DNA from: an uncultured Bacteroidales bacterium
GTDB lineage: Bacteria; Bacteroidota; Bacteroidia; Bacteroidales; UBA4417
DNA length: 58,731 bases
Direction of reading: 5' to 3'
Assembly: GCA_903879715.1 (NCBI GenBank)
Contig: CAIRMR010000037.1
Coordinates: forward strand, 1-58,731
Position numbers and translations under genes: made by a program. The notes beneath the pieces are model-generated. The model saw only the letters and a list, made by a program, of their open reading frames with translations, did not search any database and was not told the origin of the DNA. Position 1 is the stretch's first letter. Every line of letters begins with the position of its first letter. Shown here in pieces: positions 4,743-57,201 of the stretch.

Positions 4743-4772
4743 GTATGATCATAAAATATGTAAGCGTTTCTG

Positions 4773-4829
4773 TGGAGCCAGCACCCACTCAAATAAACGG
4801 GGCGATACCGAAAGGCCATAAGAGTAGGA
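4773..4829 (+). promoter_or_regulatory. Leader element copy C (candidate cis-regulatory RNA)
   Basis: Third leader copy, nearly identical to copy A although it precedes the paralog of the gene behind copy B. GTGG (4773-4776) pairs with CCAC (4786-4789), loop AGCCAGCAC, core ACGGGGCG, GCC (4816-4818), terminal GAGTAGG (4823-4829). It ends 16 bases before the ATG of WG-repeat lipoprotein 2. Confidence 0.5.
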
Positions 4830-4845
4830 ATCAAATCAACATAAA

Positions 4846-26727: not shown

Positions 26728-26749
26728 GCTTTTGGAATTCTTTCATTTT

Positions 26750-27223
26750 ATGCAATATCCCGGGTATAATTCTGGAAATGTTATTTTATCTGAAGGGGAA
26801 TGGTTCCCTTTCAAAATACATAATATTGTTCAACTTCAGGATGATGCCTGGTATTTTGTGCTTCAGGATATCAATGGAATGAAGCATTTCATGGCTGCCG
26901 AGAACTATAAATCTTATGGATTTGTTGTCGGAGATCAGATTCAATGTAAAATCGATAAGGTCAATTGTACCGGACGGGTATTCCTTGAACCAAAACATCC
27001 GGTTTATAAGGAAGGTGAAATCTATTATTTTGATTTTATCAGCCACTCTGATTCCGGCAATGAAAGTGTAATTCTGGTAAGAGAAAATTCCGGGAATATC
27101 GTAGAAGTTGTTGTTAACGGAACAAAAAAGGTTGACATCAATGATGAAAAAAGAGTCAGATGCAGTGTGAAAAGTATTGCAAAAGGCAGGCTGATTCTTG
27201 AAATTCTCCCAGATTACACTTAA
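26750..27223 (+). CDS. Small OB/S1-like protein of unknown function
   Basis: A 157-residue soluble protein without a signal peptide. Two beta-rich units are visible. The first contains YFVLQDINGMKHFMAAENY followed by GDQIQCKIDKVNCTGRVFLEPKHPVY, a pattern like S1/OB-fold RNA-binding domains (strand, G..V.C.V..I...G...LEP.HP.Y). The second contains VILVRENSGNIVEV and VRCSVKSIAKGRLILEI, which repeats the same C.V..I..G...LE signature. So the protein is probably two tandem OB-like folds. The start is the ATG at 26750, after the promoter box at 26720; an in-frame TTG at 26732 is less likely. It lies directly upstream of the large candidate ncRNA, on the same strand. Family not recognised; RNA binding is inference. 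Confidence 0.6.
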   Translation: MQYPGYNSGNVILSEGEWFPFKIHNIVQLQDDAWYFVLQDINGMKHFMAAENYKSYGFVVGDQIQCKIDKVNCTGRVFLEPKHPVYKEGEIYYFDFISHSDSGNESVILVRENSGNIVEVVVNGTKKVDINDEKRVRCSVKSIAKGRLILEILPDYT

Positions 27224-27269: not shown

Positions 27270-27291
27270 GTTATTAACAATTGTTCATAAC
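27270..27291. promoter_or_regulatory. Near-perfect palindrome upstream of the candidate ncRNA
   Basis: A 22-bp palindrome with a single mismatched pair, centred on the perfect 10-mer AACAATTGTT (27276-27285) and flanked by GTTAT and ATAAC. It lies between the OB-like gene and the structured RNA region. It could be a dimeric-regulator operator; no regulator gene is adjacent. Confidence 0.35.
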
Positions 27292-27324
27292 TCATGTGTG
27301 AACAATGTGTAGTGATTTCCTGAA

Positions 27325-28257
27325 AAACACTTGACTTAGGGGGTCAAAAAGATGTAATTTTAATTCACCGGACGAGATCATGGTAACTGGCCCCGGAGAG
27401 GCTGCTGAACTTCTGAGAAGGAGGGAAGTACTGATCCCAGAGAAGCTAAAGTTTATAACTCGCAAGAGTAATTTGCAGAAGCCGATTTGAAAGCCGGAAT
27501 GCATGAAAGAGTCAAAGGGCATGAAGCACCCTGAACCGATTGACCGCAAGGAATTGAAGAACAGGCGCACCGCAAGGTGTTTAGAGCACAAGGATGGAAA
27601 ATGTGAATCGGCAACGAAACACATCGGAAACCTGAAACTGCTGAAAATCAGGTTGCAAAACCTGGCAAGTAAAAAGTTGAGACTCTCGCATCAGTAAGCT
27701 CCCGATGATACTCTGAATGCAGGGACGTAGCAAACAAAAACCGCAAGGCAATTGAATGTGAAATTCCCACGATCGCCGAAGCGCGGCACACGGCAGGAAA
27801 AACAAATCTGGCAACAGAAGAGTTGACCAAGCCGAAGCCAGAAAAGCAGGAAGCCGCAAGGCAGAAAGCCAATCAGGCGAGCCGGGGTTCCCAGGGATGT
27901 TAAAATTCCTGATACCTACAGGAGTTATCGAACCTACGGGCAAGATAGCAACAACGCTTCGAATGCAGGAACCGACAACGCGCAAGCGTGGCCACAGCCA
28001 AAATCCTGAGAGGGACAAGGTTTAAAGCCCAGAATCATCCTGAAAGCTCTTCCTCGTGAAGAAAACTACAGTTTGAAACCAGTGCCGGAAAAAACAAAGC
28101 GTGGTGTTCGCACCTACTTTGAACAACAACAGGGCATTTCTTTATGTTTTGCCAATCTGTAAATTCTGCGAAGCAAACGCCGGCCACAATCAACAGCTAC
28201 GGCTGCTGAAAGTGAAATGGGGAACTTTCCGACAGGGATGTTCCCCATTGCTTTTTT
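27325..28257 (+). ncRNA. Large structured non-coding RNA candidate, about 0.9 kb
   Basis: No open frame of protein-like composition covers this stretch, and the sequence is visibly richer in G and C than its flanks. Many perfect hairpins carry GCAA (GNRA) loops on the + strand: ACTC/GAGT at 27458-27469, GCACC/GGTGT at 27567-27580, CAGGTT/AACCTG at 27649-27664, GCC/GGC at 27853-27862 and ACGC/GCGT at 27978-27989. A striking one is ATGTG-AA-TCG-GCAA-CGA-AA-CACAT (27601-27624). GGTG/CACC at 28103-28114 has a UUCG loop, and TCTTC/GAAGA pair at 28048-28062. CTGGCCCCGG (27387-27396) can pair with CCGGGG-ttc-CCAG (27882-27894) to close a large domain. The 3' end is the terminator at 28216-28257; the 5' end is a guess. 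I see no RNase P, tmRNA, group I or group II intron landmarks. Size and style recall ornate RNAs such as GOLLD and ROOL, but I cannot assign a family. Confidence 0.72.
28216..28257 (+). terminator. Intrinsic terminator of the candidate ncRNA
   Basis: A 10-bp perfect stem AATGGGGAAC (28216-28225) with GTTCCCCATT (28240-28249), 14-base loop, then GC and TTTTTT (28252-28257). It fixes both the strand and the 3' end of the RNA. Confidence 0.88.
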
Positions 28258-28303
28258 ATTGCCCTGACATTCGATATTTGGAACAAAAAAGAATGAAAAA
28301 CAC

Positions 28304-28448: not shown

Positions 28449-29138
28449 ATGTTTGACCAACTTAACACTCGTATGCAAAAAACAATCCCGATCAAGGAAA
28501 GGTATATAGCCGTTATAAATTATTTTGAATCAGCAATGCCCGTTGCCGAAACAGAACTGGTTTACCAATCACCATACCAGTTGCTGGTTGCGGTAATTTT
28601 ATCAGCCCAATGCACCGATAAACGTGTAAATATCATTACACCTCCATTCTATAAAGTATTTCCGGATGCGGAATCTCTCTCCAAAGCTCATGTGGATCAA
28701 GTCTTTGAACTGATTAAAAGCTGTTCCTATCCTAATAATAAGGCTAAGAACCTGGTGGGAATGGCTCAGACACTTGTGAGTGAGTTTCACGGTGTGGTAC
28801 CATCAGATATTGATGAACTTCAGAAAATGCCAGGAGTTGGTCGAAAGACAGCAAACGTCATAGCTTCTGTGGTTTTTAACCTTCCGGCAATGGCTGTTGA
28901 TACACATGTTTTCAGGATTTCGAACAGGATTGGTCTGACTACAAACTCCCGAACACCGCTCGAAACTGAAAAGCAGCTGGTAAAATATATTCCCCGGGAA
29001 AAGCTTTCAATTGCTCACCATTGGCTTATTCTCCATGGCAGGTATGTTTGTATTGCCAGGAAACCAAAATGCGAAGAATGTGGCATTAAAGATTTCTGTA
29101 AATATTATTCAAAACTGGCAGCAAAAACTGATAAATAA
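28449..29138 (+). CDS. nth: Endonuclease III
   Basis: A 229-residue DNA glycosylase/AP lyase that removes oxidised pyrimidines. The helix-hairpin-helix is LQKMPGVGRKTANVIASVVF with the catalytic lysine Lys133; the catalytic aspartate Asp151 is in AVDTHVFRISNRIGL. The [4Fe-4S] cluster cysteines follow the family spacing C-x6-C-x2-C-x5-C (201, 208, 211, 217). The ATG at 28449 gives a few more N-terminal residues than usual (~211-220); the ATG at 28473 would restore typical length. The gene follows the ncRNA terminator and an inverted-repeat element. Confidence 0.95.
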   Translation: MFDQLNTRMQKTIPIKERYIAVINYFESAMPVAETELVYQSPYQLLVAVILSAQCTDKRVNIITPPFYKVFPDAESLSKAHVDQVFELIKSCSYPNNKAKNLVGMAQTLVSEFHGVVPSDIDELQKMPGVGRKTANVIASVVFNLPAMAVDTHVFRISNRIGLTTNSRTPLETEKQLVKYIPREKLSIAHHWLILHGRYVCIARKPKCEECGIKDFCKYYSKLAAKTDK

Positions 29139-55968: not shown

Positions 55969-57201
55969 TTAACTCTCATTTTTCAGAATAAGATTGTATT
56001 TATTCTCAAGTTTCTGCATGTCTTTATTGATAAGTTCATCTACAACCCGAGCATACTTTTTTGTCATATTGATACTCGAATGTCCAAGCATTTTCGAAAC
56101 AACTTCAATTGAAATCTGGTTTGAAAGTGTCACGGTCGTGGCAAATGTATGCCTGGCCGTATGCGTGCTTAGGTGCTTCTTTATACCACAAATTGTCGCG
56201 ATCTCCTTCAGGTAGGCATTCATCTTTTGGTTCGAAATCACTGGCAACACTACGCTGTTCGCAATGCAATAAACGTTTTCCCGGTATTTGCCGATAAGTT
56301 GCACTGCTGCTTCTACCAGTGGGACAGTGCAGAGATTCTTTGTCTTCTGCCTTCTTTTTTTCATCCAAAGCTTTCCGTTCCGGTTCTCCAAATCGGAATA
56401 TTTTAGGCTCTGCACATCAACAAATGCAAGACCGGTAAAGCAGCAGAAAAGGTAAGTATCCCTTACCACTTCAAGTCGTTCGATCCCGATCTGTTTGGTC
56501 ATCATAATTTTCAATTCTTCCTCCGTCAAAAAGGCAAGGTCCACATCATCAAGCCGGTATTTGATTCCCACAAATGGATCTTTTTTTAGCCAACCATTAG
56601 CTAAGGCAATCCGCACAATCTTCTTGAAATTCTTGATGTATTTCACTGTAGTGTTGTTGCAACATTTTCTGGTTGTTTTCATGTAGTACTCAAATTCAGT
56701 CACGAACATATGATTCACTTCTGAAATCCTGCAATCAGGTCGTTTGTACTTTTTCTGTATGAACGCTTTGACATGCTTGAAGCAAGTTTGATATCGTTCT
56801 ACGGTTCCAGCAGCAAAATCCTTATTCACAAGACCTTCAGCCCTGTCATTGTGCTCCTTGAAAATTTGCAGGATCGTTTTCTCTTCAGCTTCAATTCCCA
56901 AGTAGGTGTGTTTGAGATCAATGGCAGTAACGGTTCTTCCATCTTCTTCCAATTCTCTCTTTTTAACAAGCAGGTTAGCTCTTATCAATCCCAGGTAAGA
57001 GTTTATCTCTTTAGCCTCCTTAGATCCGCCGGTCGCTTTGCAATCGTCCTGGTTCCAGCAGTCAGGATCGATGTATCTGCCGATGGCAAATTCAGCCCTT
57101 TGTTTGTTTACTGTAATACGTGAATAGATGGGTGCTTCCCCCGTTTTTAATTTCTTTCCCCTGTTAATGTAGTAGAGGACAGTACATGTAGCTCGGCTCA
57201 T
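55969..57201 (-). CDS. Tyrosine recombinase/integrase, Bacteroidota type
   Basis: A 410-residue integrase. The arm-binding N-terminus is of the Bacteroidota kind (GKKLKTGEAPIYSRITVN, then IGRYIDPDCWN). A SAM-like core-binding domain lies at about 105-205 (TILQIFKEHNDRAEGLV..TVERYQTCFKHVKAFIQKKY). The catalytic domain has HTARHTF (His347, Arg350), LGHSSINMTKKYA (His374, Tyr383) and Lys in KKRRQKTK. The first catalytic arginine is replaced: FTGLAFVDV has Ala259 where FTGLR is expected. IntDOT-like integrases of conjugative transposons also lack it, so the enzyme may still be active. It is the best evidence for a mobile element here. Confidence 0.9.
   Translation of the reverse strand: MSRATCTVLYYINRGKKLKTGEAPIYSRITVNKQRAEFAIGRYIDPDCWNQDDCKATGGSKEAKEINSYLGLIRANLLVKKRELEEDGRTVTAIDLKHTYLGIEAEEKTILQIFKEHNDRAEGLVNKDFAAGTVERYQTCFKHVKAFIQKKYKRPDCRISEVNHMFVTEFEYYMKTTRKCCNNTTVKYIKNFKKIVRIALANGWLKKDPFVGIKYRLDDVDLAFLTEEELKIMMTKQIGIERLEVVRDTYLFCCFTGLAFVDVQSLKYSDLENRNGKLWMKKRRQKTKNLCTVPLVEAAVQLIGKYRENVYCIANSVVLPVISNQKMNAYLKEIATICGIKKHLSTHTARHTFATTVTLSNQISIEVVSKMLGHSSINMTKKYARVVDELINKDMQKLENKYNLILKNES

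Follow-up and report, generated by a model that had tools for sequence, protein, structure and literature searches.

A divergent member of a candidate uncatalogued family of stand-alone structured RNAs in Bacteroidales, preceded by a DnaA-box-like array

A stretch of 58,731 nucleotides from an uncultured Bacteroidales bacterium (contig CAIRMR010000037.1, assembly GCA_903879715.1; the whole stretch is called the window and all positions are counted on it) was analysed for a large structured RNA, which a preliminary description made from the letters alone had placed at 27325-28257. Such an RNA is found there. Its gene would occupy positions 27366-28257 of the + strand (about 0.89 kb), the limits being counted from the window sequence and predicted from the promoter and the terminator, with the start at about 27366-27367 (CACCGG); position 27325 is just upstream of the promoter. 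In our reading the RNA is a divergent and long representative of an uncatalogued group of RNAs, structured and stand-alone; it would act in trans, use the core around its helix P1 as a platform and be controlled by DnaA. This reading as a whole we consider evenly poised between right and wrong. Comparison of the member sequences establishes a dedicated promoter and terminator, the helix P1, a UNCG hairpin, two strands that face each other, a variable middle and the absence of a common neighbouring gene. Beyond what had been described before, the RNA belongs to a family centred on a single order, whose members have a short conserved core formed by the two ends, a middle of variable length and a DnaA-box-like array upstream.

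Joined ends and a variable, hairpin-rich middle

The comparison covers 125 non-redundant members, which were left of 174 sites after removal of near-identical ones and were placed by profiles. These span 225-918 nt (median 502), with both ends conserved and the middle varying. The 5′ end pairs with a 3′ module in a long-range helix, P1, in which compensatory changes are seen as the word pairs CCAAG/CTTGG, CCGAG/CTCGG, TCGGG/TCCGA, TCAAA/TTTGA and CCGGA/TCCGG. Five pairs of P1 are kept in 116 of the 125 members and four in the other 9 (the window's type is among the nine), whereas on re-dealing the 3′ strands 1000 times a mean of 64.9 and a maximum of 78 members had five pairs. It may be noted that the 5′ pattern used to search for members fixes A at position 4 of P1, which restricts variation there in the pattern-derived members. 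Inside P1 the conserved strands GUGAGNGAUAAAAGGC and CANAAUAACNGUA face each other, and ten columns of the 3′ strand do not vary among 59 members taken from outside the genus of the window. The UNCG hairpin adjoins P1 without a gap, and a best-hairpin search at the position of the terminator gave a stem of at least 8 base pairs in all 61 members examined. Pairs were also scored for covariation by a G-test with average product correction against a tree-based null of 100 alignments, in which Fitch substitutions were re-placed. Five pairs had E below 0.05, namely 5-41 in P1 (2.2e-4), 53-68 (0.003), 57-64 (0.015) and 56-65 (0.031) in the 3′ hairpin, and 80-109 in the terminator (0.015), and of the 18 pairs ranked highest, 17 fall in the nested stems of these three elements. 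The covariation in P1 and the hairpin indicates that selection acts on the RNA. The covariation among homologues, which the preliminary description had named as a check, and the terminator of its own, which it had described, are borne out.

The middle of the RNA is rich in capped hairpins. The window RNA has 8 GNRA stems of at least 4 base pairs, G-U pairs being allowed (loops: 5 GCAA, 2 GAGA and 1 GGGA), against a mean of 0.82 and a maximum of 5 in 2000 dinucleotide shuffles; in a separate run of 300 shuffles, one shuffle reached 8. The RNA region is the GNRA-stem maximum among 895-nt windows (step 100, both strands of the window), and no such stem is present on the reverse strand of the RNA. 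UNCG stems number 2 against a mean of 0.14 (15 of the 2000 shuffles reach 2). Across the 125 members, 289 GNRA and 175 UNCG stems were counted, against 62 and 11 in shuffles. On folding eight full-length RNAs of the genus together with RNAalifold, 223 pairs were obtained, 69 of which have at least one double change; parts of this fold are surely wrong, e.g. the pairs that use the U-run of the terminator. The AT skew lies between +0.19 and +0.53 across the 200-nt windows of 27300-28199.

No credible coding frame had been seen in the preliminary description, and our result is the same. A protein-coding gene was rejected, as no frame evolves gene-like across the genus, with one weak exception in the first 250 nt. 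When the region was compared with four relatives, third-position excess was absent in 3 of the 5 frames tested, and a weak excess was present in one phase of the first 250 nt against 2 of the 4 relatives (G010 and G015). This phase is common to the sense open reading frame (ORF) 27380-27490 and the antisense ORF 27292-27624; an insertion in G015 shifts the frames of both, and the sense ATG is missing in G014. Two antisense ORFs gave no Pfam match at E 0.1.

Homologues, genomic context and known RNA classes

Relatives, which the preliminary description had proposed to seek, were obtained by blastn, by two sequence models and by a pattern scan of species genomes. Within the genus of the window, blastn gave matches in 10 of the 16 genomes (the window's own included), and in 0 of 25 other genomes of the order. 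The ends of the RNA and the promoter are conserved among the genus loci. The first model (R1), which describes the 5′ region and was trained on ten genus members, gave 12 of the 16 genomes; one of these (G005, 25.6 bits, no palindrome) was dropped on inspection, so that 11 of 16 were accepted. The RNA is about 0.9 kb long in eight genus loci, about 0.7 kb in two (G004 and G006) and 0.64 kb in the eleventh (G001). The second model (R2) describes the 3′ module and was trained on 59 of the 61 non-redundant 3′ modules (L042b and L111 were omitted), with the window's genus excluded. With no sequence of that genus in its training set, R2 matches the window at 28182-28262 (E 1.4e-6) and finds 10 of the 10 other genus loci supplied (E 1.6e-6 to 0.009).

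Of the 295 genomes of the order, representing 183 genera, R1 matches 61 (42 genera) and R2 matches 63 (42 genera; 55 genomes carry one site and 8 carry two). Both models match in 52 genomes and either one in 72. A same-strand R2 site lies 164-764 nt downstream of 55 of the 66 R1 sites, where for one tandem pair the R1 site was matched with the farther R2 site. Sites found by R2 only show the upstream module by local profile, except L197, which is near a contig end; for L168, from the phylum search, no upstream module was found by local profile. In the phylum sample, R2 matches 5 of 395 genomes, the window's own included. The loci of the order that were read share a layout of palindrome, promoter, 5′ motif RYCARGYGAGNGATAAAAGGC and an A-rich stretch of variable length, followed by CANAATAACNGTANCYTGGCAC, a hairpin whose loop is often of the UNCG type, and the terminator.

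When the 5′ pattern was run over 84,980 species genomes, 79 stretches were obtained, of which 77 are titled Bacteroidota or a group therein. These stretches hold 80 sites, and 66 of them carry the 3′ motif by regular expression. Five of the 14 sites without the 3′ expression have at most 350 nt to the end of the locus, and the profile search recovered L061 and L075; both regular expressions, 5′ and 3′, had a purely exploratory use. Carriers of the 3′ motif include stretches titled Flavobacteriales (L089, L094, L111), Cyclobacteriaceae (L126) and Cytophagales (L129), and the named carriers are Draconibacterium sediminis, Maribellus maritimus and Gaoshiqia sediminis. Judged by these matches, the family is centred on one order, Bacteroidales. 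Second copies of the RNA are present nearby on the same strand, each with its own upstream module, at L042/L119, L106, L184, L185 and L189.

The genes around the RNA differ from locus to locus. Among 75 flanking proteins scanned, 116 Pfam families were found and none in more than 4 proteins. This maximum is an underestimate for two families of ORFs, since the 20 of the 95 flanking ORFs that were omitted include most of the enolase-length upstream and the 630-660-aa (amino acid) downstream ORFs of one lineage. A cis-element of one gene was rejected, there being no common neighbour across the family. As the flanking genes differ among loci, the RNA probably acts in trans.

The new class in Bacteroidota that had been suggested is upheld as an uncatalogued family. 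A known Rfam family was ruled out, as the RNA has no match at gathering score among the 4227 models of Rfam 15 (the only matches in the window are three distant DUF805 RNAs), nor has any of 40 related loci; scanned at low threshold, the window region and L033 gave only matches far below the gathering scores. RNase P RNA was set aside, the RF00010 match of this genome being elsewhere (G000:C4:44648-45054, E 2.8e-74). For 6S RNA (RF00013) there is no match in the genome, in a search that also misses the Bacteroides control. A phage or plasmid element was likewise rejected, with 0 matches of the 5′ pattern in viral contigs. The window copy has no blastn match in phage or plasmid records, a search that reaches close relatives only. 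The 3′ pattern has 4 matches in viral contigs, all of which lack the upstream module, and by eye no terminator hairpin was seen in them; R2 scores these at 21-30 bits, as expected from their pattern-based selection. No description was found in Rfam 15 or in the literature searched (few subscription papers; bioRxiv preprints outside its scope).

Three further comparisons are of interest. Bacteroidales-1 (RF01693) occurs in the same order, has by eye a promoter of its own of the same type and has ends that appear complementary. It differs in its 179 positions, its sequence and a nearly exclusive distribution in the sample, and was rejected as the identity of our RNA, having no match in G000 and a different sequence on inspection of 12 loci. 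RF01693 matches 47 of 198 genomes, and 47 genomes up to G211 (counted by hand) carry an R1 or R2 match; the two RNAs occur together only in G087 and G190 against about 11 expected (p about 6e-5, a value that used 48 carriers, including G004 from outside that sample, and that assumes the samples otherwise coincide). The small RNA Rfp18 resembles ours, by the accessible part of its description, as a stand-alone Bacteroidota RNA with a strong predicted secondary structure (PMC9723704). According to its abstract, Rfp18 has wide conservation within the genus Flavobacterium (PMC9723704), whereas R2 matches only 5 of the 395 phylum genomes, and homology between the two, compared by description only, appears unlikely. 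As to the giant RNAs GOLLD, ROOL and OLE, which form homo-oligomeric complexes according to the accessible text of PMC12286853, the likeness noted in the preliminary description holds in style: our RNA is also large, noncoding, rich in tetraloops and of conserved secondary structure. It does not extend further. Our RNA and the 40 related loci have no Rfam match at gathering score, the 5′ pattern has 0 matches in viral contigs, the conserved core is another one, the family is centred on one order of Bacteroidota and the promoter is DnaA-box-like. We regard it as a new family within the large ornate style of RNA, which would work like the described ornate RNAs but by the tests run lies outside them.

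The upstream array and competing explanations

The promoter pattern TTG-N17..23-TANNTTTD, ending 3-5 nt upstream of the RNA, is present in 114 of the 125 members, and a looser form of it is missing in 6; the −7 consensus of Bacteroidota is TAnnTTTG. Farther upstream, at about 95 to 50 nt from the RNA and at a nearly fixed distance, four half-sites TGTKNATAA form an array in which one is inverted and three are direct; their fifth position is degenerate, as it is in DnaA boxes. The closest known parallels are DnaA-regulated promoters and clusters of DnaA boxes. The consensus of the DnaA box is TGTGNATAA, and the half-site fits it except for T/G at the fourth position. The first two boxes form a palindrome whose 13-nt core precedes CACCGGA by exactly 93 nt in each of the 10 genus loci. 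Of 124 members, 106 have their best palindrome match at 91-101 nt upstream, and in 83 of the 106 it has at least 17 of the 20 letters. In the genome of 6.07 Mb the sole zero-mismatch match of the palindrome pattern is this locus, and matches with at most 2 mismatches are no more numerous than in the control. A full TTATNCACA box is present in 16 of the 125 upstream regions, against a mean of 1.2 and a maximum of 4 in 200 mononucleotide shuffles, and the upstream region of L053 reads TGTGGATAA three times. We read the array as marking a likely DnaA-responsive promoter; the literature searched gave nothing on DnaA-linked RNAs in this group.

Our proposal is that the RNA acts in trans, and that P1 with the strands GUGAGNGAUAAAAGGC and CANAAUAACNGUA would be the functional site, most likely a platform to which a partner protein, or another copy of the same RNA, would bind. 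By analogy with other ornate RNAs, the middle with its many GNRA hairpins may serve compaction or oligomer contacts. Less firmly, DnaA, or a regulator with DnaA-like specificity, would control transcription at the four half-sites, and the output of the RNA would thereby track the replication or growth state. Our best guess for its role is an RNA-protein or RNA-only scaffold whose expression would follow DnaA. That this is an uncatalogued large-RNA class wired to DnaA, i.e. a replication-coupled scaffold with a joined-end functional core and a lineage-specific ornate body, is offered as a tentative possibility.

A number of observations count against this proposal. The best palindrome match is outside the 91-101 nt range in 18 of the 124 members, and the fourth position, which is G in the consensus DnaA box, is almost always T in boxes 1 and 2. 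No box cluster was found near the dnaA gene of this genome, and no oriC was found for comparison. L164-L166 belong to a different order of the class; no promoter pattern was found in them, and their upstream match is without the palindrome. The covariation test was custom-written and is not R-scape; the pairs ranked 6-18 have E of 0.3 to 10, and the terminator pair 80-109 is standard in only 63% of the members. The folding energy has a z-score of −1.92 on the + strand, with 1 of 20 shuffles equally good, and of −1.41 on the − strand, and is by itself weak evidence for structure. Both models leave unpaired sites (11 of the 66 for R1 and 17 of the 71 for R2). In the window, R2 covers only model positions 19-99, beginning after the 3′ core strand, and under the stricter filters of whole-genome scans it misses the genus members G001 and G004. 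In 8 loci of one lineage, an ORF of 425-429 aa lies upstream on the same strand (the two copies scanned, from L061 and L071, are enolase), and most of these loci have a downstream ORF of 630-661 aa; we take these shared neighbours as common descent and not as cis function.

The RNA could instead be a trans-acting regulator that pairs with messenger RNA through the loops of its variable middle, while the ends give stability and partner binding only. We hold this to be rather unlikely: the stand-alone gene, the variable middle and the lack of a common neighbour fit it, and a precedent exists in the Flavobacterium psychrophilum RNA Rfp18, for which a single stem-loop pairs with all predicted targets by the accessible part of the report (PMC9723704), but the best-conserved unpaired stretches are at the ends and not in the middle, and several hundred nucleotides of tetraloop hairpins would be excessive for a pairing RNA. 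That our RNA is a functional stand-in for Bacteroidales-1, which has its own promoter and complementary ends, appears improbable. The near mutual exclusion given above suggests it, while the two RNAs differ in sequence and size, and relatedness of the genomes alone may account for the exclusion.

The DNA, too, could matter above the RNA. In E. coli, datA and DARS are sites that titrate or reactivate DnaA, and the upstream array may be a site of this kind with transcription as part of the switch. The conserved boxes, their near-fixed geometry and the uniqueness of the exact palindrome in the genome agree with such a site; against it, P1 and the hairpin covary, and L164-L166 keep the RNA core where the palindrome is not detected, which makes it quite improbable to us. 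A degenerate or mobile-element remnant without a function of its own has next to no likelihood. Its variable length and the nearby second copies (L042, L106, L119, L184, L185, L189) would suit a remnant, but the RNA is mostly single-copy, its ends are conserved across the order, it covaries, its promoter and terminator are conserved, and the searches of viral contigs (0 matches of the 5′ pattern) and of phage and plasmid records (no blastn match, close relatives only) speak against it.

Returning to the scaffold proposal, few large structured bacterial RNAs are known, and the promoter, if truly linked to DnaA, would tie one of them to the replication cycle. The named carrier species make expression, structure and deletion open to experiment, and the joined-ends core together with the natural length series from 225 to 918 nt would be a good test of the purpose of the ornate body.

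Features and neighbours in the window

Table 1. Features of the RNA gene and its upstream region in the window
Feature	Position	Strand	Remarks
Palindrome, boxes 1 and 2 of the upstream array	27271..27290	+	Near-perfect TTATTAACAATTGTTCATAA
Boxes 3 and 4, TGTKNATA-like	27295..27313	+	Here TGTGTGAA and TGTGTAGT, weak; from palindrome-anchored letter counts, offsets 25-32 and 36-43
−33/−35 promoter element TTGAC	27331..27335	+	TTGA invariant in 10 genus members
−7 promoter element TAATTTTA	27355..27362	+	TAnnTTTA in the window; Bacteroidota TAnnTTTG type
P1, 5′ strand CCGG	27368..27371	+	Four pairs in this genome; pairing kept across members, covariation
5′ core strand	27372..27387	+	Family consensus GUGAGNGAUAAAAGGC; divergent here, ACGAGAUCAUGGUAAC
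Variable ornate middle, GNRA- and UNCG-capped hairpins	27388..28160	+	Tetraloop counts; genus consensus fold
3′ core strand	28168..28179	+	Here GCGAAGCAAACG, matched to the family consensus CANAAUAACNGUA only by position and by eye
P1, 3′ strand CCGG	28180..28183	+	Covariation and pair retention
3′ hairpin, UACG (UNCG-type) loop	28185..28214	+	Directly after P1; covarying pairs; R2 match
Intrinsic terminator	28217..28257	+	Stem AATGGGGAAC..GTTCCCCATT, then GCTTTTTT; also written AATGGGGAAC..GTTCCCCATTGCTTTTTT

The neighbours of the RNA are the ORF 26732-27223, itself preceded by a spoT/relA-like gene, and, on the other side, nth (28449-29138). We presume the gene names spoT, nth and ktrA on recognizing the translated sequences by eye. 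All 10 genus loci have the RNA after a spoT-like gene, in 9 of the 10 with a gene of unknown family in between. The downstream gene is nth in three of the genus loci and, by eye, ktrA/trkA-like in four (G004, G006, G007 and G011). The product of the ORF between spoT and the RNA has 163 aa and gave no Pfam match at E 0.1. Its tblastn matches cover 9 of the 10 genus loci at 36-100% identity, and it was not found in the tenth (G004). Elsewhere in the window, the three DUF805 RNAs (RF03081) above gathering score lie inside 3.5 kb, at 1329-1396, 2146-2212 and 4767-4834; each directly precedes an ORF, and the ORFs after the second and third resemble each other. Near the end of the window, an ORF on the − strand (55969-57201) resembles by eye a tyrosine recombinase/integrase.
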